Assembly: GCA_013205435.1 (NCBI GenBank)
Contig: JABMMX010000282.1
Coordinates: forward strand, 1-32,801
DNA from: Deltaproteobacteria bacterium
GTDB taxonomy: Bacteria > Myxococcota_A > Bradymonadia > REDH01
Reading direction: 5' to 3'
DNA length: 32,801 nt
The position numbers were made by a program, and so were the translations under genes. The notes under the pieces were generated by a model, which saw only the letters and a list, made by a program, of their open reading frames with translations, was not told where the DNA came from and made no database searches. Shown in pieces: positions 3,103 to 23,508 of this stretch (its first letter is position 1; each line of letters opens with the position of its first letter).

Positions 3103-5930
3103 TCAAGGTTGGCAGCTGCCGCCCACACAGTTCTGGCCCGCGCCGCAATCGGCACTGGTCAGACACTCTCGGCCCGCAGCACAGCTGCCGGCCACACACA
3201 GTTCGCCCGCCGCGCAGTCCGCGTTGATGGCGCAGCCTCGGGCGTTACAGAACCCGAACTCGCAGCTCTCGTTCGCGGCGCAGTCGATGTCGCGATCGCA
3301 GACAGACTCCGGGAAGAAGTAGCAGCCGCCATAGACGCAGCTCTGGTTCACGGGGCAGTCGGAAGCGGTCCCGCAGCCGCCCGCGTTGCCGCAGACGAAG
3401 TTCTCACAGGCGAGGCCGAAGATGCAGTCGGCCGCCGAGCCGCAGAAGAGCTGCTGCAGGCAGCGGTCGGCTACGCAGGTCGCGTTGCCGCCACAGTCGG
3501 CCGCTGTAACGCAGGCGAAGGGCTGGCAGACAAACCCGTCGCAACGGGTGGTGGCGGGGCACTCCGAATCGGAGATGCAGTCGGGCGTGATGATGCAGAT
3601 CCCCGCCTCCTGGCTGCAGATCGTTCCGGGCGCACAATCCACATCGTTGGCGCAGGCCGCGATGGTGGTGCAGCGGCTGCCGACGCAGGTCTCGCCGGTG
3701 GCGCAATCGGCGCCGGTGGTGCAGGTCGCGATGGTCTCGCAGATGGCGGAGAAGCGGTTGCAGAACTCGTCTGCACCGCAATCCGCGTCGCTGCCGCAGG
3801 AACCCGTCGGTGCGCACCGGTAGGCGACGCACTGCGAGCCGTCCGCGCACTCGGCGTCGGTGAGGCAGGTGCCCACCCGGTCGCAGCGGCGGTCGGTGCC
3901 GCAGATGAAGCCGGCGGGGCAGTCGCCCAGGTTGAGGCAGTCAGGAATCACATCGCAGCGGCCGGAGCGGAGGCAGATCGCGCCGCCGCAGTCGTCGTTG
4001 GTGGTACAGGCGGGCGCCCAGGTGCAGAGCCCATCGAGGCAGGCGTGGTCGGCCGTCGGGCAGTCGCGATCGGCGCGGCAGGCCGTGGTCGAGCGGCAGA
4101 CGCCATCGGTGCAGCTGTCGCCAGCCGGGCAGTCGCCGTCGCCCGTGCAGAGGCCACCCCATACACAGGCTTCGCCCGTGCAGCGCAGTCCTGGGCCGCA
4201 CTCAAAGTCGGTTGAGCAGAAGGGGGCCGCATCGCAACGGCCGAACTCGCAGCGGTCACCCGGAGGGCAGTCGGTATCGACGGCGCAGGTCGAGGCCGAC
4301 GGCGGGATGCAGGCACCTGCCAAGCAGGTCCAGCCCGCCGCACAGCCCGCAGCGGCGGTGCAGCCGCTCGGCACTTCGCAACGACCGGCGTTGCAGACCG
4401 CGGTGGGGCCAAGGAACGAGCAGCCCTCGTCGCTGCCGCAGAGCAGCGGAGGCCAGCAGGTGGCATCGAGGCACTGCCAGTCCGACGGGCAGGGCGTTGC
4501 CGCGCTGCAGCTCGTCGGCACGCACCGGTTCTGATCGCACCGCTCGCTGCTGCGGCACTCGCTGTCGGTCTGGCAGTCGGGTGCAGCCTGGCAGATGCCA
4601 AGGCGGCAGATGGCGCCGAGCGCGCAGTCGTCTCCCGTGTCGCAGGGGCGGTAGCTGGCGCAGGCGCCATCCACGCAGAAGCCAAAGTCGCCGCACTCCG
4701 CAGAGGTGGTGCAGGCCGTGTCGACAACGCAGCCCCGCTGAATCGGGTCGCAGACCTCGCCCGCTGCGCAGTCGCTGTTGCTGGTGCAGCCGCTCTCGGG
4801 GACGCAGCCGCCAAAGGCGCACTGCTCGCCGGCGGCGCAATCGGCGTCGGCGACGCAGAGCGGAGGCAGGCAGGTGCCCGCAGTGCAGGCCCAGGTCGAC
4901 GGGCAGTCCGCCGCGCTCGTGCAGCCATCGGGCGGCACGGTGCAGACGCCGCGGTCGCAGGCCAGCCCCGGCGCGCAGTCGGCGTCCGAGGCGCAATCCG
5001 AGAAGATCGCGCAACGGCCCGCATCGCAGAAGTAGCCGGCGGCACAGGCCGCATCGGTGGTGCAGCCGCTCCGCGGGATGCAGGCGCCGCCGCTGCAGAT
5101 CTCCGACACCGCACAGTCGAGCGAGGTGGTGCAGCTGCCATCAGAAGGCAGACAGGCGCCCGCGTCGCACCGCTCGCCCGTCGCGCAGTCAAGCGTGGAA
5201 CCGCAGCCTTCGCGCGGCGAACAGAAGCCGATGTTGCACTGCTCGCCGGGGTTGCAGTCCGAATCTGTCACGCAGGCGGGCTCGGGCAGCGGCACGCAGG
5301 CTCCGGAGATGCAGGTGTTGCCGGTTCGGCAGTCGCTGTCGGCCACGCAACCCGTCGGGTTGAGGCAGACATTGCCCGTGCAGGGCAGGCCGAAGGGGCA
5401 GTCTGCCGCCGTCGTGCAACGCAGCGGCGGGAAGCAGCGGGTCGCCTCGCAGCTCCAGGCCGGCGGGCAGTCTGCCGTCGTATCGCAGCTCGTCGCAACG
5501 CAGTTGTTGAAGTCGCACCGCTCACCTGCCGCGCAGTCGCTGTCTGCGCTGCACTCGGGGATCGCAAAGCAGACGCCGCTCGCGCCGCAGTAGGTGCCCG
5601 GCGAGCAGTTGTCGTCCGATACGCAGGGGATGAGCGTCTCGCAGTAGCCGTTGAAGCAGAAGCCGCCGGCGCAGTTGGCGTCGCTCGCGCAATCGACCCG
5701 CGGCACGCAGGTCCGCGAGGTGAACGAACAGACCGAACCGGGCTCACAGTTCGCGTCGCTCTCGCAGCCGCCGGTTGCCACGCAACGGCCGCCCACACAC
5801 TGGCTCCCTGCCGCGCAACCAGCGTCGCCCGTGCAGGCCTCGAAGACACAGCCACCTGCGATGCAGGCGTAGCCCTCCGCGCAGTCCAGATCGCCCGCGC
5901 AGGCCGCCTCTGCCTCGCAGCTGCAGTCAA
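3103..5930 (-). repeat. Higher-order 14-unit repeat within the Cys-repeat protein
   Basis: Counting four-Cys units after the linker, units 6, 20 and 34 share a signature (ERCDFNNC, ERCDQNRC, TTRCDGFVC). Their last Cys falls at residues 277, 603 and 935, at 5500, 4522 and 3526 in the DNA, giving periods of 978 and 996 nt. Units 3, 17 and 31 alone share a longer C-x6-C spacing (CSFTSRTC, CDPIQRGC, CNRFSAIC). Units 9, 23 and 37 share an extended tail (VPLPEP, IPPSAST, YFFPES). Nearly three copies of a 14-unit block are present, the last cut short. Confidence 0.8.
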
Positions 5931-6330
5931 CGGCAGTCGAGCCAGGCGGGCAGACGAGGTCGGCGCAGCCGCCTGATCCATCGCCCGAGCCGTCGGTATC
6001 ACCAGAGCTGCCGGTATCGCCCGACCCATCGACCTCACCCGAGCCGTCGGCATCGCCCGACCCATCGGTGTCGCTTTCTGCGTCTCCAGGTGCTGCAGCA
6101 GGGTCGCGCACGCAGAGCCCCTCCTCGCAGAGGCGCCCCAGCCCGCATTCGGCGCTGGCAGTGCACTGCGTCGACGGTGCCTGGCAGATCCCCGCTTCAC
6201 AAAGGAAGTCGCTCGGACAGTCAAAGTCGCTCTCGCAGCCATCAGTTGAGGTTGTCGCAGAGGTCCCGCAGCCCGTTGCGAAGGCGAGTGCGAGCATCGC
6301 AGAGCACCCAAAGTAGTTTAGTATCCGCAT
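3103..6330 (-). CDS. Giant Cys-repeat (about 42 four-Cys units) surface lipoprotein
   Basis: The protein has 1075 residues from the ATG at 6330. This start is chosen over an in-frame ATG at 6375 because GAGG sits 8 nt upstream and a signal peptide begins there (MRILNYFGCS..., lipobox ATGC with Cys21). Two four-Cys units come first, then a low-complexity linker of DGSG/DGSGD repeats (about residues 77-115). About 40 further units of roughly 23-24 residues follow, with the pattern C-x4-DC-x5-C-x4-C-x3, reminiscent of Dickkopf N-terminal Cys repeats. Individual units differ, but every fourteenth unit shares its quirks (see findings). There is no enzymatic domain, and the protein ends on a unit (VGGSCQP) with no anchor tail. 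A long, disulfide-stapled surface rod or adhesin is inferred. It is the first gene of the likely minus-strand operon running to position 1. Confidence 0.9.
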   Translation of the reverse strand: MRILNYFGCSAMLALAFATGCGTSATTSTDGCESDFDCPSDFLCEAGICQAPSTQCTASAECGLGRLCEEGLCVRDPAAAPGDAESDTDGSGDADGSGEVDGSGDTGSSGDTDGSGDGSGGCADLVCPPGSTAVDCSCEAEAACAGDLDCAEGYACIAGGCVFEACTGDAGCAAGSQCVGGRCVATGGCESDANCEPGSVCSFTSRTCVPRVDCASDANCAGGFCFNGYCETLIPCVSDDNCSPGTYCGASGVCFAIPECSADSDCAAGERCDFNNCVATSCDTTADCPPAWSCEATRCFPPLRCTTAADCPFGLPCTGNVCLNPTGCVADSDCRTGNTCISGACVPLPEPACVTDSDCNPGEQCNIGFCSPREGCGSTLDCATGERCDAGACLPSDGSCTTSLDCAVSEICSGGACIPRSGCTTDAACAAGYFCDAGRCAIFSDCASDADCAPGLACDRGVCTVPPDGCTSAADCPSTWACTAGTCLPPLCVADADCAAGEQCAFGGCVPESGCTSNSDCAAGEVCDPIQRGCVVDTACTTSAECGDFGFCVDGACASYRPCDTGDDCALGAICRLGICQAAPDCQTDSECRSSERCDQNRCVPTSCSAATPCPSDWQCLDATCWPPLLCGSDEGCSFLGPTAVCNAGRCEVPSGCTAAAGCAAGWTCLAGACIPPSASTCAVDTDCPPGDRCEFGRCDAAPFCSTDFECGPGLRCTGEACVWGGLCTGDGDCPAGDSCTDGVCRSTTACRADRDCPTADHACLDGLCTWAPACTTNDDCGGAICLRSGRCDVIPDCLNLGDCPAGFICGTDRRCDRVGTCLTDAECADGSQCVAYRCAPTGSCGSDADCGADEFCNRFSAICETIATCTTGADCATGETCVGSRCTTIAACANDVDCAPGTICSQEAGICIITPDCISDSECPATTRCDGFVCQPFACVTAADCGGNATCVADRCLQQLFCGSAADCIFGLACENFVCGNAGGCGTASDCPVNQSCVYGGCYFFPESVCDRDIDCAANESCEFGFCNARGCAINADCAAGELCVAGSCAAGRECLTSADCGAGQNCVGGSCQP

Positions 6331-6386
6331 GCGTCCGACCTCGAAGAAACCTTGTTGCGTTGCCCATTGCCACAATGCTCAGACGA

Positions 6387-10457: not shown

Positions 10458-10743
10458 TTCGATCGGCTCGCGCAGTGGTGCGTTGAGGCGGAAGAGCGCA
10501 TTCCCTGTGGCCCGTTTGTCACACGACGCGCGTGACGCGGTGCCGATAACGCGGCGCGCAACGGCCAACCTTTCGGGATTGCTCGCGAATCTGCGTGCAA
10601 ATCTCCCGCACAAAATTTCCTCTGCGGAGGGAATAGAGCTCAAAAATTGTCACAAAATCGTCTCTTGACCGTTTGACGAGCATCCCGAACAACCCTAGCG
10701 CGAGTAGATAGGGTGACCGAAACTGCCCTGATTGGAGGTTTGC
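10458..10743 (+). promoter_or_regulatory. Upstream region of the giant surface-protein gene
   Basis: This 286-nt gap is the longest non-coding stretch. It changes from GC-rich to locally AT-rich at about 10610-10665. Possible -35 boxes are TTGACC (10665-10670) and TTGACG (10673-10678), but no convincing -10 hexamer follows at 16-18 nt. An inverted repeat GTCAC-9 nt-GTGAC (10518-10536) is a candidate operator. GGAGG at 10734-10738 is the ribosome-binding site and fixes the ATG at 10744. No terminator hairpin for the lipase gene is evident. Confidence 0.4.
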
Positions 10744-13700
10744 ATGCGTCCGTGGATTCTTTCGTTGTCTCGAGCGGGAACGGCTATCGGCTTGGTATCG
10801 CTCACCTTGGTAGGTTGTGACTCTGGATCTCCCGAACTGGAGAGCCAAACGACGCCGGTCGCTTCAGCGCCCGACGGCGGCATTGTCGCACCCGATGCTT
10901 CCACGCCCACCCCGGTTGGGGCCACGAACCTGCGGAGCGGAGAGATCCGGCTCGCAGACTTCCAGGGCCACTACGACGGCACCCAGTTCGTCATCGATTC
11001 CATCAAGCCCGCGGCTGAGCCCGTCGAGGGCTTCGGTCTCATGTCACGCGAGCAGCAGCTCTGCATCCTGAACGTCGTCCAGGACGGCATTCCCGGCAGC
11101 GGCCCAGCCAACTCGCTGGAGCTCGTAACGGAGAGCCAGGCGCGCAACGGTGCCTGTCCTGCGCCCTACGACACGGTGCCCTCGCTCTGCGCGAATGTTA
11201 CCCTTCGCTCCTTCTACACGGATCGCACCCGGACAGATGTCTACGTGCGCATCAACAGTCTTACGACGCCGCTCGCAAACCCGGTGCTCAACAGCGCAGT
11301 TTCAACCCCTGGCCTCCCCTCCGGTCTGGGCATCTTCTCCTACGGCAACCTCGGCCTTGCCGGCTCGCCCCAGGCGGCTGCCTCCCGCGACTGGGTCTTC
11401 CAGACGTCGGGCGCCTCCTTCAGCTTCACCGGCAGCGTCGTTACCAACATGGCGGAGTTCGCCAATGGTCTCGACGACGACTGCGACCTCCGCGTGGACG
11501 AGGGCATCGCCAACTACGCCGACGGCATCGCCTGTGTCGACAACACCGACTGCACCAGCACCCTCTGCCAGGGCGGCATCTGCGCCCCAACCACCTGCTC
11601 CAACGGCGCGCCCGACGCGGGCGAGACCGACATCGACTGCGGCGGCATCTGCGGCGCCTCCTGCGTTGGCGACAAGATCTGCACCGCCGGCACCGACTGC
11701 ATCACCGGCCAGTGCCCCGCAGGCCTCTGCCTCGGCTCCACCGGCGACGTCTGCGCGGGCAACCCCTCCTGCGTCAATCAGGTCTGCAATCCGAACATCG
11801 CGGTCACCTCGGAGCCGCTGACCTTTGCCCCCGAGACCGTGGGCCCCAACGCTGTGACGGTGACGCAAGTCGACGGAGACCCGCTGGGTGATGATACCGT
11901 ATCCAGCGCCATTCCGCTCGGCTTTGGCTTCAACTTCTACGGAAACCAGTTCACCAACATTTACGTGTCCGACAACGGCTGGGTCTCTTTCACGGCTCCC
12001 GCCTTTTCTACCGCGTTCCGCTCAGCCATCCCGAGCACCAGTACGCCCAACAACCTGATCGCGGCCTGGTGGTCCGATCTCGATCCCGATGGCACGGAGA
12101 CCATCACCTACTTCACGACTGGCACTGCGCCCAACCGCAAGTTCATCGTCAACTATGGAGCTGTTCCGACCTATACCTTTCCCGACACGACTGTCACCGC
12201 GCAGATTGTTCTCTCGGAGGGTAGTAACACCATCGACATCCACTGCACGGATTGCAGCAACCCGGGTACGCAGCAACGCACGCAGGGCGTCGAGAATGCG
12301 ACTGGCACCGCTGGGCTGGCCACCGCGGGCGTGAACAACGCCATCGCCACCAAGACCAACACCTCCATCCGCTTCAACACCGTCACCCAGGATGGCTTCT
12401 GCGCCGCGGCCAGCTGCACCGACGCCGTCGATAACGGCAACGAGACGGGCGTGGATTGCGGTGGCCTCTGCGGCAGCAACTGTGCAGACGGCATCACCTG
12501 CAACGTCGGTGCCGACTGCCTCCGCGGCAACTGCGCCGCCGGTATCTGCGTCTCCTGCTTCGACGGCATCAAGAATCAGACCGAAGGCGACACCGACTGC
12601 GGCGGCGCCTGCGCCCTCCGCTGCGGCTCCAGCCAGACCTGCAACATTACGGCGGACTGCATCTCCGGCATCTGCGACGCCTCCAACATCTGCGTGCCGA
12701 CCGGCGACCCGGGCGATGCCTGCGCGAGCGACAACGACTGCGACAGCAAGGTCTGCGACGCCGGCGGCCCCGGCTCGCAGGGCGGCTACCCGCTCAACCT
12801 CAACGGTCTCATCACGGACGGCAATCCTGCGGTCAACAGCTTCGGCGGCCCGCTAGGGGACGACCAACTGAGCGCACCCTACCCCATTGGCTTCAACTTC
12901 CCCTTCTACGACACCACGCAGACTCAGGTGGTTATCTCGTCGAACGGCTGGCTGACCTTCGGTTCGGCGACCGGCTCATTCGCCTCCACGATCCCGTCGA
13001 CCTCCACGCCCAACGGCGTCGTCTCCTTCTTCGGACGCGACCTCGACCCCAGGGACGGTGGTACGATCACCTATGCGACGGTGGGCACCGCGCCCAACCG
13101 CGAGTTCCTTGTGAACTACAACAACATCCCGGACTTCGGCGGATCCGACCACGGCCCCATCACGGTGCAGGTCGCGCTTCAGGAGACCACGGGCTACATC
13201 GACATCCGCTGCGTCAGCTGCGTGTCGAACACCTCAACCGCCATTATGGGCATCGAGAACATGGCCGGCACCCTCGGCATCCCGATGCCCGGCGCCGCCT
13301 ACTCGGCGGCCCGAAACCTTACGAATACCAGCATCCGCTTCCAGACCGTCACCCGTGTGGTCGGCGTCTGCCTTGCACCCACCTGCTCGGACGTGACGTC
13401 TAACCAGGACGAGTCGGGCATCGACTGCGGCGGCGCAGTCTGCACGACGCGCTGCGCTGGCGGCCAGGCCTGCATCGCCGGTGGTGACTGCACGAGCACC
13501 CGCTGCGAGAACGCGGTCTGCTCCACCTGCACCGACGGCATCAAGTCCGGCACCGAGACCGACATCGACTGCGGCGGCGTCTGCGGCTCCACCTGCATCG
13601 ATACCAAGATCTGCAGCGTCAACGCCGACTGCGCCTCCAACCGTTGCGAGGGTGGCATCTGCACCTCCTGCACCGACGGCGTGAAGAACGGCAGCGAGAC

Positions 13701-16700
13701 CGACCTGGACTGCGGCGGCGTCTGCGGTGGCACATGCAACTTTGCAGAGGTCTGCTTGGTTGCCGGGGACTGCTTCACCAACAACTGCACGGCCGGCAGC
13801 TGCGGCAAGGGCGCGACCGGCGCCAACTGCGGTGGCCCCGTGGACTGCGACAGCCAGGTCTGCGTGCCGGGCATCGCGAAGGGCGCGAGCGACACCGCGG
13901 CAACCTACGCGCTTGTCCCGACGGCCGGCTTCGCGCCGGTGACCTTTCCTTCCTCGGATGACAGCTCAACGCTGCTCCAGATCGGCTTCTCCTTCCCCTT
14001 CTTCACGGGGACCTTCACGGAGCTCTCGCTGAGCACGAACGGCCTCTTCCAGTTCGGCGGAACCGCCTCGAACAGCTACTCGGCCGCACTCGGTTCCACG
14101 GCCACGCCGAACAACTTCGTCACCTTCTTCAACAAGGACCTGACGGTGGCCGGCGCGACCATCACCTCGGGAACCGTGGGCACGGCGCCGAACCGCAAGT
14201 TCGTCATCGATTTTCAAGACCTCGCAGACTACGGCGGCTACGACCACGGCCCCGTTAGCCTCCAGATCCAGCTCAACGAGAGCACGGGCTACATCGACCT
14301 GATGTACACCAACGCCGACTCCGGTCTCGACACGCTGCGCATCGGCGCCGAGGGCCCCTCCGTAGGCGGCGCGACGCCCGACTTCATTGCGCTCGATGGC
14401 TACAACCCAGGTTCGACGGCCTTCGTCAACAAGGCGGTTCGCCTCGGCACCTTCAACCAGTACCCCGGCCTCTGCGCCGCGCCGAACTGCTCGGACGCAA
14501 CCAAGAACCAGGCCGAGACCGACATCGACTGCGGCGGCCAGTGTGGCGCTGTTTGCACCATTGGTAAGGGTTGCAGCACGGTTGGAGACTGCGACCCCGG
14601 CGCAGCGGGCGTGGCCGAGTGCCTGCTCGTCGGCACCGCCACGATCTGCATGAACTGCGGCGATGGCACCAAGAACGGCAACGAGGCCGACGTGGACTGC
14701 GGCGGCTCCTGCGCCACCGACTGCGTCTCGGGCCAGACCTGTGGCGGCAACAACGACTGCGATAGCAACCTCTGCGTTGGCGGCCTCTGCGCGGGGTGCG
14801 CCGACGCCACCCAGAACGGCACCGAGACCGATGTGGACTGCGGCGGCGCAGATTGCGGCCCCTGCTTCGGCGGCAAGATCTGCGTTGCAGACGGCGACTG
14901 CCTGTCGGCCTCCTGCGTTGGCGGCTTCTGCGCGCTCGGCGCAACCGCCTCCTCCTGCAGCCAGGGCGATCAGTGCCTCAACGGCGTCTGCGGCGGCGGC
15001 ACCATCCCCTCTGCAAACGGCGTGGCGGTCACCTGGAACCCAGACGCATCGCTGAATGCTGTGACCGCCGGAGCCCGCGCCTCCAGCACCATCGGTGGAA
15101 CCTCCAAGCTTGGCGATACGACCATCACACCGGCGATCCCGCTTGGCTTTACCTTCCGCTATTTCGACCAGCTCTACACGACGGCGCGCATCACCGGAAA
15201 CGGTTGGCTCTCGTTCACCGCGACCTTCTCAAGCGACAACCCACCGTTCCTGTCGCCGAGCACATCTACCCCGAACGCAATCATCGCCCCCTTCTGGTTC
15301 GATGCGAACCCCTCGGCCGGTGACGCGAACACCGATGTCCGATACCTCACCACGGGCACGGCTCCCAACCGGAAGTTCATCGTGAACTGGATCAATGTGC
15401 CCAGCTATTACGCCTCGACCGACAAGGCGACCTTTCAGGTCATCATCTACGAGAACGGCGGGTATGTGGACATCAACTGCAAGGACTGCACGGTCAACTA
15501 TTCGCAGTCGAAGGCTCAGATCGTAGAGAATGCGGCAGGCACGCAGGCCTTCTCCGCCTACTCGCTCAACAACTCGACCACCTTCAGCACCCCCAACCAG
15601 ACGGCGAAGCGCTACTTCACCAACGCGACCAACGGCGCCTCCTGCGTTGCACCCACCTGCAACGACGGCGTGAAGAACCAGGGCGAGACCGACACCGACT
15701 GCGGCGGCGCAGCCTGCGGCGCCACCTGTGCTCCGACCAAGATCTGCGCAGCCGACACCGACTGCGGTGGCCTCGGCGCCTCCTGCGCTGCCGGCGTCTG
15801 CCGCAACTGCGCCGACGGCGTATTGAATGGCACGGAGACAGCCCTGGATTGCGGCGGCCAGTGCGGCGCGACCTGCGGCGGCGGCCTTGCCTGTAACTTG
15901 GGCACGGATTGCGCGACGAGCGGCTGCACGGGCGGCCTCTGCAACCTTGGTGCGACGGGCGAGCTCTGCACCTTGGGCAACCAGTGCGCCAACGGCGTCT
16001 GCTCAACCCCTGCTCCGGTGGCCATCACCACCGCTCCTGACGCAGCGTCGCTCGGCAACATCACGGCCGGCACGCAGGCCACCTCGTTCGGTTCGAAGCT
16101 GGGCGACTCGGGTCACTCCGACGCCGTCACGCTTCCGTTCGCCTTCAATTTCTTCGGCACGACTTACCCGAGCGTGAAGATCAACGGTAACGGTTGGATC
16201 AGCTTCGATTTGGCATCGACCAACAGCCACAATGCTCCGACCACCTCGCCCTCTTCCTTCAACCCGAATGCCGTCATCGCGGGCTTCTGGTTCGACGCCG
16301 AGGCGACGATAAGCGCAAGCTCCGACGTGCGCTACACCACCGTAGGTACCGCACCCAATCGGAAGTTCATCGTGAACTACGTGGCGCTTCCCTACTGGTT
16401 GAACGCTTCCGACACCGTAACGTTCCAGATCGCCCTCAACGAGGGTGAGAATACCGTCGACATCTTCTGCTCGGATTGCACCCTGGCGACCACCGGTACG
16501 ACCAAGGCACAGGTCCTCGAGAATGGCGCCGGCACGGTCGCTCGGTCGGCCTACTCCCTGAGCGCCTCGTCGTCCTTCAGCATCCCGAACAACACCGGCT
16601 TCCGCTACAACACCGGCTCCATCAAGGCCTGCCAGGCGCCGACCAACACGGACGGAGTGAAGAACGGGACCGAGACCGACACCGACTGCGGCGGGACCTC

Positions 16701-19700
16701 GGGCACGCTCTGCGCGCCGACCAAGATCTGCATCGCCGACACCGACTGCGGCGGCGCCAACGCGACCTGTGCTGGCGGCTTCTGCCGCAACTGCAGCGAC
16801 ACGGTGAAGAACGGTAACGAGACCGACATCGACTGCGGTGGCATCTGCGGCGGCAACTGCGGCTTCAACAAGATCTGCGGCCTGAGCACCGACTGCGCCA
16901 GCCAGAACTGCGTGAGCGGCCGCTGCGGACTCTCGGCGGATGGCCTTGCTTGCTCCGCGAACGGTGACTGCGCGAGCAGCTCCTGCGATGGCGTCGCGGG
17001 CGGGCGGATTCTCTCCGCGGTGAACCAGGTTGGAACCTACAACGATGGTCTTGGTACCTCGCTGACGGGAGACGACTCTTCCGTGGCTGTGCAGCTTGGA
17101 TTTAAGTTCCAATTCTTCGGGAATGAGTTCTCGACCGCGACGGTGAGCACGAACGGCTACCTTGTATTCTCGGGATCTGTGACGGGTTATGGCTCCAATC
17201 TCCCGACTGCCGCCGCTCCGAACAACCTCGTCGCCCTCTGGTGGAATGATCTCAATGCCTCCGCAGCGGGCCAGATCCGGTTCTACACAACGGGAGCAGC
17301 GCCCTTCCGGAAGTTCGTGGTGAACTACAATGGATTGAACCACTACTCTTCTGGGAACCTGATCAACGCGCAGATGGTGTTGCATGAGTCCCTGAACTAC
17401 GTCGACCTCACCTGCCTGAACTGCGCGGTGGATGGCGATCTCCATTACCAGGGCGTGGAGAATGCGACGGGCACCAGCTCCTTCACGACGGAGACGAACG
17501 GTTCCTCGTCGTCGGCCATCACGAACCGTACCGTCCGTTACGTGACAGGCGCCAGCAGCCCCATCTGCGCACCTGCGACCTGTGGCGATGGCAGTTTGAA
17601 CGGCACGGAGACGGGCATCGACTGCGGAGGTAGCTGCCGGTCGGACTGCACGAAGAACGTTGCCTGCGTGGCGGGTACGGATTGCCTGTCTGGCAGTTGC
17701 ATCAGCGGCCTCTGCGCCGGCATCGCGGATGCGGGAGCGTGCGCGCTTTCGAACTCCTGCACGAGCGGTGTCTGCACCTCCGGCGCCTGCGCTGCGCCCA
17801 CCTGCACCGACACGGTGAGGAATGGCGCTGAGACCGACCTCGATTGCGGCGGCGCCACCTGCGGCGCCACCTGCGGCGCTGGAAAGGTTTGTGGCACAGT
17901 CACAGACTGCGCATCGAACCGCTGCGATGGCGGCCTCTGCCGCACCTGCACCGACGGTGTGAAGTCGGGCACAGAGTCCGACATTGACTGCGGCGGCGTC
18001 TGCGTCAGCGGCAGCGCTGGCAAGTGCGCGCTTACCAAGATCTGCGCGGTCAACGGCGATTGCGGCTCGGGCAACTGCGTGGCAGGCGTCTGCGCTGCCC
18101 CGCCGTTCGACTGCTTCGACGGCATCAAGGGCAGCAACGATGTCAACGAGACGGGTGTTGACTGCGGTGGCTCGGATTGCGCAGCCCGCTGCTTCGTCGG
18201 CACTGCCTGCATTGTGGGCGGCGACTGCGCAAGCGGCGTCTGCACCAGCGGTATCTGCGCCAAGGCCAGCACTGGCGGCAGCTGCCTGACGGGCGCCGAA
18301 TGCAACGACGGCGTCTGCAGCGGAGGCGCGCCGACGGCACAGAGCACTGCGGTGCTCTACACCACGCCGGACGGCACCTGGACGACCATCAGCGGCATCT
18401 CTGATGACAGCTTGAAGACCGCGTCGCCCATCGCGATCGGGTTCAGCATGAACTACTTCGGCAACCAGTACACCACCTTCGATGCGACCTCGAACGGCTG
18501 GATGGCTCTTGGGACCAACGGCGTCAGTGCGTTCACCTCCAGCCTGACGCTGCCGAGCTTCACGGCAAGGAACGGTATCGCTCTCTTCGCTCAGGACAGC
18601 GGCTCCAGCACCCCGCCGGTTGCCACCTATCGCTACAAGGTGTTTGGCACGGCTCCCTTCCGGAAGCTCATCTACGATGTGACCAGGAACCGGACTTTTT
18701 ACAACACGGCGAGCGTGACCTACACCGCCCAAGCTGTGCTCTATGAGACAACGGGTCGCGTTGAGGTTGTCTGCAACCCCTGCACACAGGAGACGACCCG
18801 CCCTGGAACGCAGGGCGTGACCAACGCTGCAGGCACCGTTTCGGCCTTCCTCGCTGGCCGCAACAACGCAGCCTTCAGCGCTACCGACACGGCCGTGTTC
18901 GACACCATTGCAGGCCGCACCTGCCAGGCGCCCACGAACACGGACGGCGTGAAGAACAGCACAGAGACCGATATCGACTGCGGTGGTAGCTCCGGCATCA
19001 CCTGCGGCGGTGGTAAGGTCTGCACGATTGCGGCGGATTGCGCGAGCGCCAACTGCACTGGCGGTCTCTGCGGCAAGCTGGCCGACGGCGCATCTTGCGC
19101 TGCGGATAATGACTGTAACAGCAGCCTCTGCGGCGGCACTGACCCGCGCGGTGTCTCGGTCGGCACCTTCTCGGCCATTACCTACCCGAACTGCGCTGCG
19201 CCGGGGGCAGGCGAGACCTGCTACAGCATTAGCGACGACTCAACTTCGGCAGCCATCACCGTTCCCTTCACCTTCAAGTTCTTCGACATTGGTTACACCT
19301 CTCTTCGAATCAACAACAATGGTTGGGTAACTTTCGATTCGGCGGACGTCTCTACCAACGGCTACACCAACACGCTCTCGAACGTCACGACCGTCTTCCC
19401 GCACACCGCTCGCGACCCCGGCCCCGCCATCTACCTGTATGGGTTCGACATGGCTACCTCGACGAACAAGTGGGCCACCTACACGCTTGGTACAGCCCCG
19501 AACCGCGAGTTCTACATTACGCTCAATAACGGCGTTGGGTATACGGCAACGAACGGTACGGCGACGGGGGCAATCATCCTGCTCGAGGCGGACAACTCGG
19601 TGCACATCCAGTGCGACACCTGCACCAAGCTTACTAGCACGAATGTGAAGCGTCGCGGCGTTCTCAACGCCGACAGCTCGCTCGCCTACTTCTACGCCGA

Positions 19701-20517
19701 CAACACCACGCTCGGTTCGGAGGACTCTGTAGCCTTCACGGTGGATGGCGCAACGAACGCTGCCCGTCGCCGTCTGGTCTACCAGACGAACTGGTCGAGC
19801 AAGGTTTGCGCCGTGACCGCCAGCCGCGGAGTGCCCTGCGTCAGCAACGGTGGCTGCCTGAGCGGATCCTGCGTCGCCGGAAATGCGGTGAGTTCGATCG
19901 CCTACGTGGCGCCCAGCAACCTGCTCGGCGGCGCAGCGAACAACGGCGGCGCTCTGGTTAGCTCCTCCGGCACCACCGATGCCCGCTTGTCGGGCTCCAA
20001 CGTGTCGTTGACCTACCCGATTGGATTCAACTTCAAGTTCTTCGGCACGCAGTATGCCAACTTCCGCGCGGCGTCAGATGGCCACCTGTACTTCTCGACG
20101 AACAACACCTCGTCAGCAGCTGCATCGCAGGCGACAGCGGCCTCCACAGCGCCGAACGCTGTGGTCGGCTACGCATGGCACGACATGGGCGCGCAGACGG
20201 CGACGACCGCTGGTAACTTCCGCACTACCGGTTCCGCCCCGAACCGTACCTTCATCTTCAGCGTCAACGGGGCGGCAACTGCTACCGCCGGCGGCGTGTC
20301 CTCGGCTGAGGTAAAGGTTTACGAGACCTCCAACCTCGTCGACATCACCTGCGTCGCCTGCACCCAGGGTTCGACAGCTACTTCGACCGCCATCGTCCTT
20401 GAGAACTCGGCGGGCACGGCGAACCTCAATGCGCTCGGTGCAGGCACCGGCACGACAGGCGCGGTGAACACCTCCTCCTACCGGTTCAACCCGAACCCGG
20501 CCTCCGTCTGCTTCTAA
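10744..20517 (+). CDS. Giant 3257-residue lipoprotein alternating nidogen-like and Cys-rich domains
   Basis: The ATG at 10744 follows GGAGG and begins a lipoprotein signal (LTLVGC, Cys25; Asp at +2). An earlier in-frame TTG at 10732 overlaps the ribosome-binding site and is rejected. Residues about 30-240 are a unique N-terminal domain ending with a MopE-like NGLDDDCDLRVDEG. Then Cys-rich blocks (C.DGVKNGTETDIDCGG.CG..C, then DC.SG.C..G.C) alternate with nine beta domains of about 200 residues. Each beta domain shows a GF.F.FFG..Y strand, an NGW(I/L)SF strand, a TAPNRKF(I/V)VNY strand and an ENA.GT segment, resembling the NIDO (nidogen-like) domain. There is no catalytic motif. The protein ends abruptly at SVCF, with no C-terminal anchor. 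A surface adhesin or matrix fibre is inferred. A strong terminator follows, so it is probably transcribed alone. Confidence 0.9.
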   Translation: MRPWILSLSRAGTAIGLVSLTLVGCDSGSPELESQTTPVASAPDGGIVAPDASTPTPVGATNLRSGEIRLADFQGHYDGTQFVIDSIKPAAEPVEGFGLMSREQQLCILNVVQDGIPGSGPANSLELVTESQARNGACPAPYDTVPSLCANVTLRSFYTDRTRTDVYVRINSLTTPLANPVLNSAVSTPGLPSGLGIFSYGNLGLAGSPQAAASRDWVFQTSGASFSFTGSVVTNMAEFANGLDDDCDLRVDEGIANYADGIACVDNTDCTSTLCQGGICAPTTCSNGAPDAGETDIDCGGICGASCVGDKICTAGTDCITGQCPAGLCLGSTGDVCAGNPSCVNQVCNPNIAVTSEPLTFAPETVGPNAVTVTQVDGDPLGDDTVSSAIPLGFGFNFYGNQFTNIYVSDNGWVSFTAPAFSTAFRSAIPSTSTPNNLIAAWWSDLDPDGTETITYFTTGTAPNRKFIVNYGAVPTYTFPDTTVTAQIVLSEGSNTIDIHCTDCSNPGTQQRTQGVENATGTAGLATAGVNNAIATKTNTSIRFNTVTQDGFCAAASCTDAVDNGNETGVDCGGLCGSNCADGITCNVGADCLRGNCAAGICVSCFDGIKNQTEGDTDCGGACALRCGSSQTCNITADCISGICDASNICVPTGDPGDACASDNDCDSKVCDAGGPGSQGGYPLNLNGLITDGNPAVNSFGGPLGDDQLSAPYPIGFNFPFYDTTQTQVVISSNGWLTFGSATGSFASTIPSTSTPNGVVSFFGRDLDPRDGGTITYATVGTAPNREFLVNYNNIPDFGGSDHGPITVQVALQETTGYIDIRCVSCVSNTSTAIMGIENMAGTLGIPMPGAAYSAARNLTNTSIRFQTVTRVVGVCLAPTCSDVTSNQDESGIDCGGAVCTTRCAGGQACIAGGDCTSTRCENAVCSTCTDGIKSGTETDIDCGGVCGSTCIDTKICSVNADCASNRCEGGICTSCTDGVKNGSETDLDCGGVCGGTCNFAEVCLVAGDCFTNNCTAGSCGKGATGANCGGPVDCDSQVCVPGIAKGASDTAATYALVPTAGFAPVTFPSSDDSSTLLQIGFSFPFFTGTFTELSLSTNGLFQFGGTASNSYSAALGSTATPNNFVTFFNKDLTVAGATITSGTVGTAPNRKFVIDFQDLADYGGYDHGPVSLQIQLNESTGYIDLMYTNADSGLDTLRIGAEGPSVGGATPDFIALDGYNPGSTAFVNKAVRLGTFNQYPGLCAAPNCSDATKNQAETDIDCGGQCGAVCTIGKGCSTVGDCDPGAAGVAECLLVGTATICMNCGDGTKNGNEADVDCGGSCATDCVSGQTCGGNNDCDSNLCVGGLCAGCADATQNGTETDVDCGGADCGPCFGGKICVADGDCLSASCVGGFCALGATASSCSQGDQCLNGVCGGGTIPSANGVAVTWNPDASLNAVTAGARASSTIGGTSKLGDTTITPAIPLGFTFRYFDQLYTTARITGNGWLSFTATFSSDNPPFLSPSTSTPNAIIAPFWFDANPSAGDANTDVRYLTTGTAPNRKFIVNWINVPSYYASTDKATFQVIIYENGGYVDINCKDCTVNYSQSKAQIVENAAGTQAFSAYSLNNSTTFSTPNQTAKRYFTNATNGASCVAPTCNDGVKNQGETDTDCGGAACGATCAPTKICAADTDCGGLGASCAAGVCRNCADGVLNGTETALDCGGQCGATCGGGLACNLGTDCATSGCTGGLCNLGATGELCTLGNQCANGVCSTPAPVAITTAPDAASLGNITAGTQATSFGSKLGDSGHSDAVTLPFAFNFFGTTYPSVKINGNGWISFDLASTNSHNAPTTSPSSFNPNAVIAGFWFDAEATISASSDVRYTTVGTAPNRKFIVNYVALPYWLNASDTVTFQIALNEGENTVDIFCSDCTLATTGTTKAQVLENGAGTVARSAYSLSASSSFSIPNNTGFRYNTGSIKACQAPTNTDGVKNGTETDTDCGGTSGTLCAPTKICIADTDCGGANATCAGGFCRNCSDTVKNGNETDIDCGGICGGNCGFNKICGLSTDCASQNCVSGRCGLSADGLACSANGDCASSSCDGVAGGRILSAVNQVGTYNDGLGTSLTGDDSSVAVQLGFKFQFFGNEFSTATVSTNGYLVFSGSVTGYGSNLPTAAAPNNLVALWWNDLNASAAGQIRFYTTGAAPFRKFVVNYNGLNHYSSGNLINAQMVLHESLNYVDLTCLNCAVDGDLHYQGVENATGTSSFTTETNGSSSSAITNRTVRYVTGASSPICAPATCGDGSLNGTETGIDCGGSCRSDCTKNVACVAGTDCLSGSCISGLCAGIADAGACALSNSCTSGVCTSGACAAPTCTDTVRNGAETDLDCGGATCGATCGAGKVCGTVTDCASNRCDGGLCRTCTDGVKSGTESDIDCGGVCVSGSAGKCALTKICAVNGDCGSGNCVAGVCAAPPFDCFDGIKGSNDVNETGVDCGGSDCAARCFVGTACIVGGDCASGVCTSGICAKASTGGSCLTGAECNDGVCSGGAPTAQSTAVLYTTPDGTWTTISGISDDSLKTASPIAIGFSMNYFGNQYTTFDATSNGWMALGTNGVSAFTSSLTLPSFTARNGIALFAQDSGSSTPPVATYRYKVFGTAPFRKLIYDVTRNRTFYNTASVTYTAQAVLYETTGRVEVVCNPCTQETTRPGTQGVTNAAGTVSAFLAGRNNAAFSATDTAVFDTIAGRTCQAPTNTDGVKNSTETDIDCGGSSGITCGGGKVCTIAADCASANCTGGLCGKLADGASCAADNDCNSSLCGGTDPRGVSVGTFSAITYPNCAAPGAGETCYSISDDSTSAAITVPFTFKFFDIGYTSLRINNNGWVTFDSADVSTNGYTNTLSNVTTVFPHTARDPGPAIYLYGFDMATSTNKWATYTLGTAPNREFYITLNNGVGYTATNGTATGAIILLEADNSVHIQCDTCTKLTSTNVKRRGVLNADSSLAYFYADNTTLGSEDSVAFTVDGATNAARRRLVYQTNWSSKVCAVTASRGVPCVSNGGCLSGSCVAGNAVSSIAYVAPSNLLGGAANNGGALVSSSGTTDARLSGSNVSLTYPIGFNFKFFGTQYANFRAASDGHLYFSTNNTSSAAASQATAASTAPNAVVGYAWHDMGAQTATTAGNFRTTGSAPNRTFIFSVNGAATATAGGVSSAEVKVYETSNLVDITCVACTQGSTATSTAIVLENSAGTANLNALGAGTGTTGAVNTSSYRFNPNPASVCF
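11623..16838 (+). repeat. Exact 20-mer repeated four times in the giant gene
   Basis: GAGACCGACATCGACTGCGG occurs identically at 11623-11642, 13555-13574, 14515-14534 and 16819-16838, each coding ETDIDCG at the same place in a Cys block. Near-identical copies occur elsewhere (for example near 14824 and 18965). Such identity at DNA level could allow slipped or unequal recombination that changes domain number. Confidence 0.85.
11800..20505 (+). repeat. Nine-fold nidogen-like plus Cys-block repeat
   Basis: The GFxFxFFG strands that open each beta domain lie at about 11920, 12885, 13980, 15137, 16131, 17092, 18432, 19257 and 20020. Approximate domain spans are 11800-12390, 12780-13350, 13890-14460, 15010-15620, 16010-16620, 17000-17550, 18335-18915, 19140-19800 and 19885-20505. 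The Cys blocks between them vary in length, from about 25 codons (19805-19880) to about 255 codons (17560-18330). The beta domains diverge clearly from each other, so duplication is old, while the Cys blocks are more alike. Confidence 0.85.
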
Positions 20518-20571: not shown

Positions 20572-20611
20572 GTGAGGGCAGCGCGGCGCGCCCCCTTTTG
20601 CTCCTCCGTGG

Positions 20612-20634
20612 ACCGCTCCGGTAGGAGCGGTTTT
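20612..20634 (+). promoter_or_regulatory. Second hairpin with T-run directly before the next gene
   Basis: A perfect 8-bp stem ACCGCTCC / GGAGCGGT (20612-20619 with 20624-20631), loop GGTA, runs into TTTT. It ends about 16 nt before the ATG at 20650. It may be a backup terminator, or a leader hairpin or attenuator of the downstream gene. Its 3' end is close to the ribosome-binding site GGAG but does not cover it. Confidence 0.5.
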
Positions 20635-20649
20635 CCCTTGGAGTCGTTC

Positions 20650-23508
20650 ATGCGTAATTTCCTCGGACTTGGTCTCGCCTCAGTCTTCGCCCTCGCGGGT
20701 TGTGGAGAGGAGGCCAAGAAGCAGCCCGCTCCCGCAGACGAGTGTTCTACCTTCTCCCCATGCGCCATCGGCGAGTGCGTGGAAGGCCAGTGTGTTGCAG
20801 GCGATGTGGTCGAGGATACCGACCCGGGCGTTGACACGGCACCGGACACCCAGCCCGACACCACAGACACGGGTACCCCCGATACCATCGAGCCTACGGG
20901 TGCCGCCTGCGGCGTGGCCTGCGTGGCAGACGGCGATTGCGACAGCGGGCTGTGCCGTCCGCTTGGCACGGGGGCAGCCAAGGTCTGCACCGAGCTGTTT
21001 GCCACCGATGGCTGCGATGGCTGCCCCAGCTTCGGGCCCATCTCTGCGGGCGCCTCGGGCAGCGACGGCGACCTCTGCGCCGCGGGCGATTATGGTGACT
21101 GCGCTGCCTGCACGGCAGACGCCGACTGCGGCGCCGGCCTCTGCCAGCCCACCAGCGGCTCAACTTTCTGTCAGATGCCCTGCTTTGGCGACAACAGCTG
21201 CCCCGAGGGCTTCACCTGCCGCGGCGCCGACCGCAACGGTTCAGTCGTTGCGGTCTGCGAGCCCGACAACGGCCTCTGCACGGGCTGCATCGATGAAGAT
21301 GGCGACGGCTACGGAGGTGGGCCCGCCTGTCTTGGTCCGGACTGCGCACCTGCCGACCCCACCATCAACCCGGGCGCCCCCGAGCTCTGCAACAATGCAG
21401 ATGAGGACTGCGATGGCCGCGCAGACGATGGCATCTCGCTCGCGACCGACGAGAACAACTGCGGAGGCTGCGGCATCGTCTGTGACCTCGCGAATGCAAA
21501 CGAAGTCTGCACCGCCGGCATCTGCCGTGTCGACAGCTGCACGGGCAACTTTGCAGACTGCAATGGCGACCGGGTGGATGGCTGCGAGGTGAACTTCGAC
21601 GACCCCGATACCTGTGGTTCCTGCGTGGTGACTGGCGGCCTGGTCGGTGCGCCCTGCGGCATCTGCGGCGACGGCGTCTTCGCCTGCTCCGGCGTTGGCA
21701 CGGCCGAGTGCGTTGGCGATACCGCGAATGCGTGCGGCGGCTGCGAGCCGCTCCCGCAGGTTCTGGGCGACACCTGCGGCTGCGGCGCGGGCGAGTGGGC
21801 CTGCGACCCTGCGACGCCCGGCGCGCAGGTCTGCATCAACGATGCGCTGGCCAACGACTGCGGCGGTTGCGGCGCGGTTGAGGGCGGCGTTGCTGGCGAG
21901 GCCTGCTGCGGTGCCTTCACGCTGGCCTGCGACCCCTCGAACCTGAACTCCGTCTTTTGCGATGTACCCGACAGCTTCCCCCGCAACGCCTGTGGCGGTT
22001 GCACTGCGCTCGCCCGTGAACCCGCTCAGCCCTGCGGCACCTGCGAGAGCGGAGCCACAGTCTGCGACGGCCGTGAGGCGACCCGCTGCGATGGTGACTT
22101 GGGGAACGCGGCACTGAACGGCTGCGGCGGTTGCGCGACGCTGCCGGGCGAGCCGGGCGAGGCCTGCGGCACCTGCGGTCTCAACAGCTATGTCTGTGAT
22201 GCAACGGACATTGACCAGAGCAGCTGCAACGGAGACACCCGCGTCAACAGTTGCGGCGGCTGCGCCGCGCTCGACATCGCGCCCGGCGCTGCCTGCTGCG
22301 AGACCTACACGGCCATCTGCGACCCCCTCCGCCCCGGTCTGACGAAGTGCGATGTACCTGTGACCGTGCAGCTCAACGCCTGCGGTGGTTGCGGCGTGCT
22401 CGACCAGCGGCTTGGCGAGGTCTGCGGTACCTGCGGCTCGGGCCGCTACGCCTGCGGCGGCCAGGATACGGTGGTCTGCGCCGGCGACCTTGGCGCTGCC
22501 GCGCTCAACGCCTGCGGCGGCTGCGGCCTGCTTGATGGCGAGCCCGGGTCGGCCTGCGGCCCCTGCGGCGAGGACTTTGTGGAGTGCGTAGGTACCGATA
22601 TCGTCGCCTGTGACGGCGCAACCAGCTTCAACAGCTGCGGCGGATGCTTGCCGCTCGCCAACGAGCCCGGCGCCACCTGCTGCGGTGGCACCTCAGAGTA
22701 CACTTGCAACCCCGACGATCGCAACGGTACCGTCTGCCCGAGCGCCGATGGCCGAGTGAACTTCTGCGGGGGCTGTGGCAACGGTCGCGCAGAACTCGAC
22801 GGCGCCTGCGGCACCTGTGGCTCCGGTACCTACGCGTGCGACCGGGCCGATCCGACTGCGGTTGTCTGCAATGGCGACCAAGGTGCAGCCGCTCTGAACG
22901 CCTGCGGCGGCTGCGGCCCTCTTAGCGCCCGCATCGGCGAGGCCTGCGGCAGCTGCGGTCTCGATACCTACATCTGCGACCCCTCGGGCGGTGGCGATGT
23001 GGTCTGCTCGGGAGATACCACTTTTGACTGTGGCGGCTGCACCGACTTCGCCGAGAGCGAGGGCGACGCCTGCGGATCTTGCGGTCTTGGCGCCTTTGCC
23101 TGCTCGGGCAGCACGCTGACCTGTGTGGGCGATGCAGCGAACGAGTGCGGCACCTGCGAGACGCTCCTCCAGCCACCAGGCGGCAGCTGCTGCGAAGGCG
23201 GCACGCTGGAGTGCAACCGCGACACCGGCACCGTCCTCTGCAACAACACCGACCCCGGGCTTCTTAACGCCTGCGGCGGCTGCGCACGGCTTGAGGCAAA
23301 CCCGGGTGATGGCTGCGGCACCTGCGGCTACGGCACCTTCATCTGTGACGGTGACGGTCTGACCTGTGAGGGCGACCCCGGCGATGGCATCCTCAACGCC
23401 TGTGGTGGCTGCTCGACGCTCGATGGTGTCCCGGGCACCAGCTGTGGCGGTGGAGACATCTGGGTCTGCGACGGAACCGAAGCCGTCTTCTGCTCCCCGC
23501 CCGGCTAG
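20650..23508 (+). CDS. CGGC-repeat surface lipoprotein with a MopE-type unit
   Basis: The protein has 952 residues from the ATG at 20650, which follows GGAG by 6 nt; the frame is open further upstream but there crosses the leader hairpin. The lipoprotein signal ends FALAGC (Cys18). A Thr/Asp/Pro spacer follows (DTAPDTQPDTTDTGTPDT), then several irregular Cys modules. One MopE-type unit (DEDGDGYG, DCAPADPTINPGAPELC, DEDCDGRADDG) lies near residues 215-260. The rest, from about residue 320, is fifteen units of about 43 residues beginning CGGC and holding a second motif, either CGTCG or CC. No enzyme motif is present. A disulfide-rich surface protein is inferred. Terminators flank the gene, so it is probably a single-gene transcript. 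Confidence 0.88.
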   Translation: MRNFLGLGLASVFALAGCGEEAKKQPAPADECSTFSPCAIGECVEGQCVAGDVVEDTDPGVDTAPDTQPDTTDTGTPDTIEPTGAACGVACVADGDCDSGLCRPLGTGAAKVCTELFATDGCDGCPSFGPISAGASGSDGDLCAAGDYGDCAACTADADCGAGLCQPTSGSTFCQMPCFGDNSCPEGFTCRGADRNGSVVAVCEPDNGLCTGCIDEDGDGYGGGPACLGPDCAPADPTINPGAPELCNNADEDCDGRADDGISLATDENNCGGCGIVCDLANANEVCTAGICRVDSCTGNFADCNGDRVDGCEVNFDDPDTCGSCVVTGGLVGAPCGICGDGVFACSGVGTAECVGDTANACGGCEPLPQVLGDTCGCGAGEWACDPATPGAQVCINDALANDCGGCGAVEGGVAGEACCGAFTLACDPSNLNSVFCDVPDSFPRNACGGCTALAREPAQPCGTCESGATVCDGREATRCDGDLGNAALNGCGGCATLPGEPGEACGTCGLNSYVCDATDIDQSSCNGDTRVNSCGGCAALDIAPGAACCETYTAICDPLRPGLTKCDVPVTVQLNACGGCGVLDQRLGEVCGTCGSGRYACGGQDTVVCAGDLGAAALNACGGCGLLDGEPGSACGPCGEDFVECVGTDIVACDGATSFNSCGGCLPLANEPGATCCGGTSEYTCNPDDRNGTVCPSADGRVNFCGGCGNGRAELDGACGTCGSGTYACDRADPTAVVCNGDQGAAALNACGGCGPLSARIGEACGSCGLDTYICDPSGGGDVVCSGDTTFDCGGCTDFAESEGDACGSCGLGAFACSGSTLTCVGDAANECGTCETLLQPPGGSCCEGGTLECNRDTGTVLCNNTDPGLLNACGGCARLEANPGDGCGTCGYGTFICDGDGLTCEGDPGDGILNACGGCSTLDGVPGTSCGGGDIWVCDGTEAVFCSPPG
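21750..23505 (+). repeat. Three-unit higher-order repeat in the CGGC protein
   Basis: Units with a CC motif instead of CGxCG (CCGAF, CCETY, CCGGT, CCEGG) lie at 21901, 22291, 22675 and 23185. Spacings are 390, 384 and 510 nt, the last equal to one period plus one 126-nt unit. The unit after each CC unit carries CGTC and ends in a GDxGxAALN-like tail; the next ends GDTxxNS-like. The array is therefore an A-B-C block copied about four times with one extra unit inserted. Confidence 0.8.

Follow-up and report, generated by a model that had tools for sequence, protein, structure and literature searches.

Long arrays of four-cysteine units are common in the class Bradymonadia and are easily taken as featureless stalks. 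One such array is encoded by a predicted lipoprotein gene at positions 3103-6330, on the minus strand of a 32,801-nucleotide stretch of DNA (the whole of which is here called the window), and it raises the question of whether its units are interchangeable or stand in an order that has been copied and kept. If the latter holds, one must further ask how large the copied block is, how old the copies are, and whether the distance between them or their content has been conserved.

The gene and its product

According to the list of open reading frames and their translation, the gene begins with an ATG at 6330, ends in a stop codon at 3103-3105 and encodes 1075 amino acids; the mechanical reading frame stays open further upstream, to a TTG at 6375, and a Met start at the same place or close by is found in orthologues. 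The segment 6268-6330 reads as a signal peptide with the lipobox LALAFATG-C, in which the predicted lipid-bearing residue is Cys21 (codon 6268-6270). Both Cys21 and Gly22 are invariant across 12 orthologues, and by such direct reading the product is a predicted outer-membrane lipoprotein. Parsing of the remainder gives 42 four-Cys units, of which two are N-terminal (6112-6237) and 40 follow a Gly/Ser/Asp-rich linker and a short Cys-rich stretch of other spacing (5902-6111); the unit numbers used below cover these 40 and are those of an earlier, sequence-only reading of the locus. An imperfect 18/36-nt tandem repeat at 5979-6069 codes the linker, and the N-terminal part that includes it has the highest dN/dS within the gene (0.23).

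The genome from which the window derives is a 3.67-Mb draft of 404 contigs, about 81% complete. Its closest relatives are metagenome genomes labelled uncultured delta proteobacteria or Myxococcales, with farther orthologues labelled Lujinxingia and Bradymonadaceae, labels that would place the bacterium in the Bradymonadia of the Myxococcota; isolate names point to lakes as the habitat of these bacteria.

A period of 14 units

The sequence-only reading had claimed that the irregularities of individual units recur every 14 units, and this recurrence is confirmed in both sequence and cysteine spacing. Against a null of shuffled unit order, similarity between units rises at lag 14 (z=4.5) and lag 28 (z=5.2) to values reached in none of 4000 shuffles, with all other lags below 1.5. 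Cysteine spacing alone gives z=6.7 at lag 14 (0 of 20,000 shuffles) and z=3.9 at lag 28 (p=0.003). When all units are compared with one another, the best partner of a unit lies at n±14 or n±28 in 13 of 40 cases, where 1.9 are expected (0 of 5000 shuffles). Self-comparison of the DNA at offsets in multiples of 3, a check which that reading had proposed, ranks 69 nt, the length of one unit, first (z=5.4) and 978 nt second (z=3.4); the latter diagonal is weak, as would be expected because the copies are old. The period recurs independently in the proteins L029 and L030 taken together (lag 14, z=6.7; lag 28, z=4.6) and again in family f5 (lag 14, z=4.9). The array is a super-repeat, a multi-unit block repeated with the positions of its units kept. 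Coincidence within a long array of similar units, to which the shortness and likeness of the units and some strong pairs at other lags might lend a little credit, is exceedingly improbable given the shuffling results and the preservation of the same register in orthologues.

The individual landmarks fared unevenly. The last cysteines of units 6, 20 and 34 do lie at residues 277, 603 and 935, in steps of 978 and 996 nt, and seven-residue tails occur in units 9, 23 and 37 and in no other unit among 1-39. The C3-x6-C4 spacing is present in units 3, 17 and 31 as described, but is not theirs alone, since unit 33 has C-x6-C too; likewise, RCD with a four-residue tail marks units 6, 20 and 34, but RCD itself is shared with unit 11.

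A nine-unit signature module

The signal of the period resides mainly in a module of nine units and about 206 residues, with fixed, unit-specific spacings and motifs, which stands three times on the minus strand: as copy A (units 2-10; 5221-5835), copy B (units 16-24; 4234-4857) and copy C (units 30-38; 3247-3867). Between them lie two spacers, units 11-15 (4858-5220) and units 25-29 (3868-4233), with weak copy-to-copy homology to each other, and the protein closes with units 39-40 (3106-3246); in families f5, f18 and f42, too, the final module is succeeded by about two units. One consensus aligns 42 module copies from 24 proteins. It starts with the x6 unit, has RCD with its four-residue tail three units on, and continues with a unit that ends in PPL in many copies, then INxVC..PGGC, the unit with the seven-residue tail (GACxPxPP) and CEFGxC.

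An eight-unit profile, from which the tested protein was left out each time, finds exactly three peaks per protein in the window's family (z 7.5-11.6), the next peak being at most 2.7. For the window's lipoprotein, copies A, B and C score z 8.8, 8.8 and 9.6, a result aided by the presence, among the training sequences, of an orthologue 90% identical to it; such help is less of a factor for L029 and L030. Module matches to the three copies have E-values of 1.6e-60, 6.4e-59 and 1.5e-60. Other families have two strong peaks or one, and in f2/f6 faint extra peaks (z 3-5) appear some 19-20 units upstream.

The extent of the copied segment can be judged from the spacers, which align copy to copy when the three genera are pooled (p=0.003) and give p=0.23 in the window alone, in a test of six units that includes unit 16/30, counted elsewhere as module. 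The pooled homology suggests that all 14 units were probably duplicated together. The earlier proposal that the protein grew through duplication of a block some 14 units long is therefore upheld: homology links units n, n+14 and n+28 in the window, and orthologues keep them in the same register.

Module and spacer have since been conserved to different degrees. Between genera, modules exceed spacers in the window's family (0.34 v 0.25, p=0.009) and in f5 (0.50 v 0.39, p=0.001); between two close species both are conserved and dN/dS is low in both (0.13 in modules v 0.09 in spacers). These comparisons bear on the idea of a neutral or length-adjusting stalk, in which units are interchangeable, copying is a matter of chance and the recurrence every 14 units survives as a relic without a role of its own. 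Unit numbers among relatives do range from 27 to 82, unit copying is frequent in some of them, and dN/dS between close species does not single out the modules, but the odd spacings and motifs of the module persist over families and classes while the spacers drift. A neutral stalk that matters for its length only is disfavoured by this conservation of the module and appears unlikely. Unit order is a fixed feature shared between families and, in the case of the module, between classes, so that an addressable module is present in at least some such arrays.

Age and distribution of the copies

The three module copies are 38-43% identical in protein sequence. Where residues are identical, they share codons at a frequency of 0.585 at lag 14 and 0.486 at lag 28, against 0.526 at other lags; as this is no commoner than elsewhere, codon choice is saturated, the copies are old and nothing homogenises them. 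The likening of the array to a centromere therefore has to be divided. Its layout, in which unit n is closest to unit n+k, does resemble that of centromeric higher-order satellites. Such satellite repeats are kept near-identical, whereas the lipoprotein has three copies only, codes for protein, and bears no trace of the continuing exchange that would maintain near-identity, so that the comparison fails as a description of process.

Three copies 14 units apart are kept in orthologues from all three sampled genera of the window's family. At E≤1e-30 the module is present in 41 of 57 Bradymonadia genomes and also in seven sampled genomes outside the class but within the same phylum (families f18, f34 and f42), in five of which two strong copies are separated by about 306 residues (13 units). 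The eight genomes of the Bradymonadia family f3 that were searched are without the module at this threshold and have other DUF7107-like matches. Across relatives, strong copies lie 11 (L110), 13 (L036), 14, 15 (L104-L107), 16 (L035, L058), 18 (L101, L103) or 20 (L102) units apart, 14 being the commonest.

This variation speaks to a second alternative, in which 14 units form a structural ruler, equal to a single turn or a set length of the rod, and selection holds the modules at exactly that distance. A precedent exists in nebulin, which has seven simple repeats per super-repeat and one conserved motif in each (PMC7109182), its super-repeats being matched to the thin filament. Like nebulin and titin, the lipoprotein arranges small modules in higher-order units; their periods match a filament lattice, whereas the spacing of its modules varies among relatives. 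A ruler would account for a distance of exactly 14 units, twice per protein, in all three sampled genera of the window's family, for the prevalence of 14 in family f5, and for the pairs about 13 units apart in the five genomes outside the class. It is weakened by spacings of 11 to 20 units elsewhere, constancy being confined to the window's family, and by the fact that pairwise conservation falls on the module and not on spacer length. Because spacing drifts in relatives, there is no support for a strict structural period of 14, and a ruler seems quite unlikely; the suggestion that a turn or binding site is fixed at every 14th module is not supported in that form, what is conserved being the nine-unit module.

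The tree of module copies places all B copies of the three genera in one clade (97/95) and the C copies likewise (100/97), and joins the C copies of the window's family to C of family f5 (98/94). By AU tests, neither a clade of all B copies nor one of all C copies can be rejected. Restriction of copy C to families f1 and f5 was considered and dropped, as two-module proteins occur in f7 and outside the class. The simplest reading would be an ancestor with two modules and the gain of a third copy in the window's family.

Two further observations concern copying in relatives. In a second, 950-aa paralogue from a genome of the same family (G005:C193:10554-12404), the module is matched twice, more weakly, at positions about 1230 nt from each other. 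In the f2 orthologues L043 (76 units) and L046 (81-82 units), units resemble one another at short lags (z as high as 4.5), which points to more recent copying of one or a few units at a time and sets these proteins apart from that of the window.

Family and fold of the repeat unit

Scored over the whole protein, DUF7107 (PF23416) reaches 133.1 bits in 19 stretches, well over the Pfam gathering cut-off of 24.6, and TIGR04201 (Myxo_Cys_RPT) reaches 28.3 bits in one stretch, over the NCBIfam cut-off of 25. Besides DUF7107, Pfam returns just a weak Dickkopf_N match below cut-off, and no PA14 domain or CCP/Sushi unit is matched in the lipoprotein. Nor is there a MYXO-CTERM sorting tag: NCBIfam gives TIGR04201 alone, and the C-terminus is a four-Cys unit. 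In the literature DUF7107 was not found by name, and TIGR04201 was found named once. Each unit has about 23 residues and probably two disulfides.

Prediction of the full-length structure is poor (pLDDT 55, pTM 0.25). With copy C alone and the 42-row alignment, AlphaFold2 gives pLDDT 91.6 and pTM 0.79, with a short helical turn and a beta-hairpin in most units of the model; the high pLDDT may be owed solely to the deeper alignment and must not be taken as a sign of anything special in the module. A Foldseek comparison with the PDB gives no significant match, and a profile search of PDB sequences finds none below E=0.02. Some 23 residues superpose at about 1 Å on squash-inhibitor mini-folds, and at 1.4 Å on the DPY module of Dumpy. 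Min-23 is a mini-fold with two disulfides (PMC6259850), and the likeness to it, to the squash inhibitors and to DPY extends to length (about 23 residues), disulfide number and the beta-hairpin; squash inhibitors have six cysteines, against four per unit here, and with Foldseek E-values of about 2 or higher this is resemblance only. Kinship with viral models was also considered and rejected: Cys-rich giant-virus proteins gave low E-values, but TM-scores of at most 0.25 and mostly large rmsd reduce the likeness to local resemblance.

A proposed origin and role

Taken together, these results are best explained, with a probability of about 0.6, by a disulfide rod with a lipid anchor, along which a nine-unit module recurs; the rod would have been lengthened by copying of a 14-unit segment and would work in the manner of the long homologous repeats of complement receptor 1. 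The four-Cys units, of DUF7107/TIGR04201 type, would form the rod, and the lipid would hold it in the outer membrane. Unequal recombination would have copied the segment of one module and its five-unit spacer, adding a third copy in the window's family to an older state of one or two. Each module might then be a folded segment that offers the same binding surface or stiff joint, and its copying would add valency or reach. Surface location, ligand and role are inferred.

Two known systems come close in layout or in unit. Firstly, human complement receptor 1 is an extracellular chain with long homologous repeats, in which a seven-unit block stands in four copies with equivalent functional sites (PMC6883348). 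Both proteins are chains of short disulfide units with a recurring multi-unit block, and the analogy is one of layout only, for the lipoprotein is bacterial, has an unrelated unit, a period of 14 units and far more diverged copies. Relatives with one or two modules at other spacings argue for an old duplicated module, closer to complement receptor 1 than to a centromere. Secondly, the repeats of myxobacterial TraA have been proposed to form a rigid stalk at the cell surface (PMC3325183), and by profile score they share the DUF7107/TIGR04201 unit. TraA differs in its PA14 lectin-like domain, its MYXO-CTERM and its nine repeats, whereas the lipoprotein has a predicted lipid anchor and units ordered into a recurring nine-unit module.

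A bolder extension, tentative and rather doubtful, would make the module a folded recognition element, so far undescribed, among the surface lipoproteins of Myxococcota. Its small disulfide units would create the site through their order and not through their presence alone, and the number of copies (one to three) and the distance between them would determine valency and reach, directed at a partner cell or the surface of prey. An addressable module makes DUF7107, a domain of unknown function, testable, since it lends itself to expression, folding and use as bait. The locus also provides a bacterial case in which super-repeat evolution can be followed through extant lineages that have one, two or three copies.

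Neighbouring genes

Across families, no conserved neighbour in a fixed position is shared. Ser/Thr kinases lie near the Cys-repeat gene in several families, in varying places. In several f5 relatives the gene just downstream is QueE-like (best match TIGR04349, slightly under cut-off), a housekeeping enzyme, and radical-SAM maturation of the lipoprotein was accordingly rejected. A gene of about 760 aa stands directly upstream of the Cys-repeat gene in six f2/f6 relatives (L040, L041, L043, L045, L046 and L113), with OmpA and carboxypeptidase-regulatory-like domains in both of those scanned (L040 and L045). This arrangement of an OmpA-domain gene is found in f2/f6 relatives only, and none was seen beside the lipoprotein gene of the window. 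It recalls TraB, the OmpA-like partner of TraA (PMC3325183), a parallel that may serve as a lead and must not be read as evidence. Elsewhere on the plus strand of the window, a 3261-aa open reading frame at 10732-20517 has 208 cysteines, and its residues 1487-1626 form a nidogen-like (NIDO) domain; among its four-Cys stretches 27 can be parsed as units, from which the 14-unit period is absent. It is followed at 20572-23508, also on the plus strand, by a 978-aa open reading frame with a MopE-type putative metal-binding motif.
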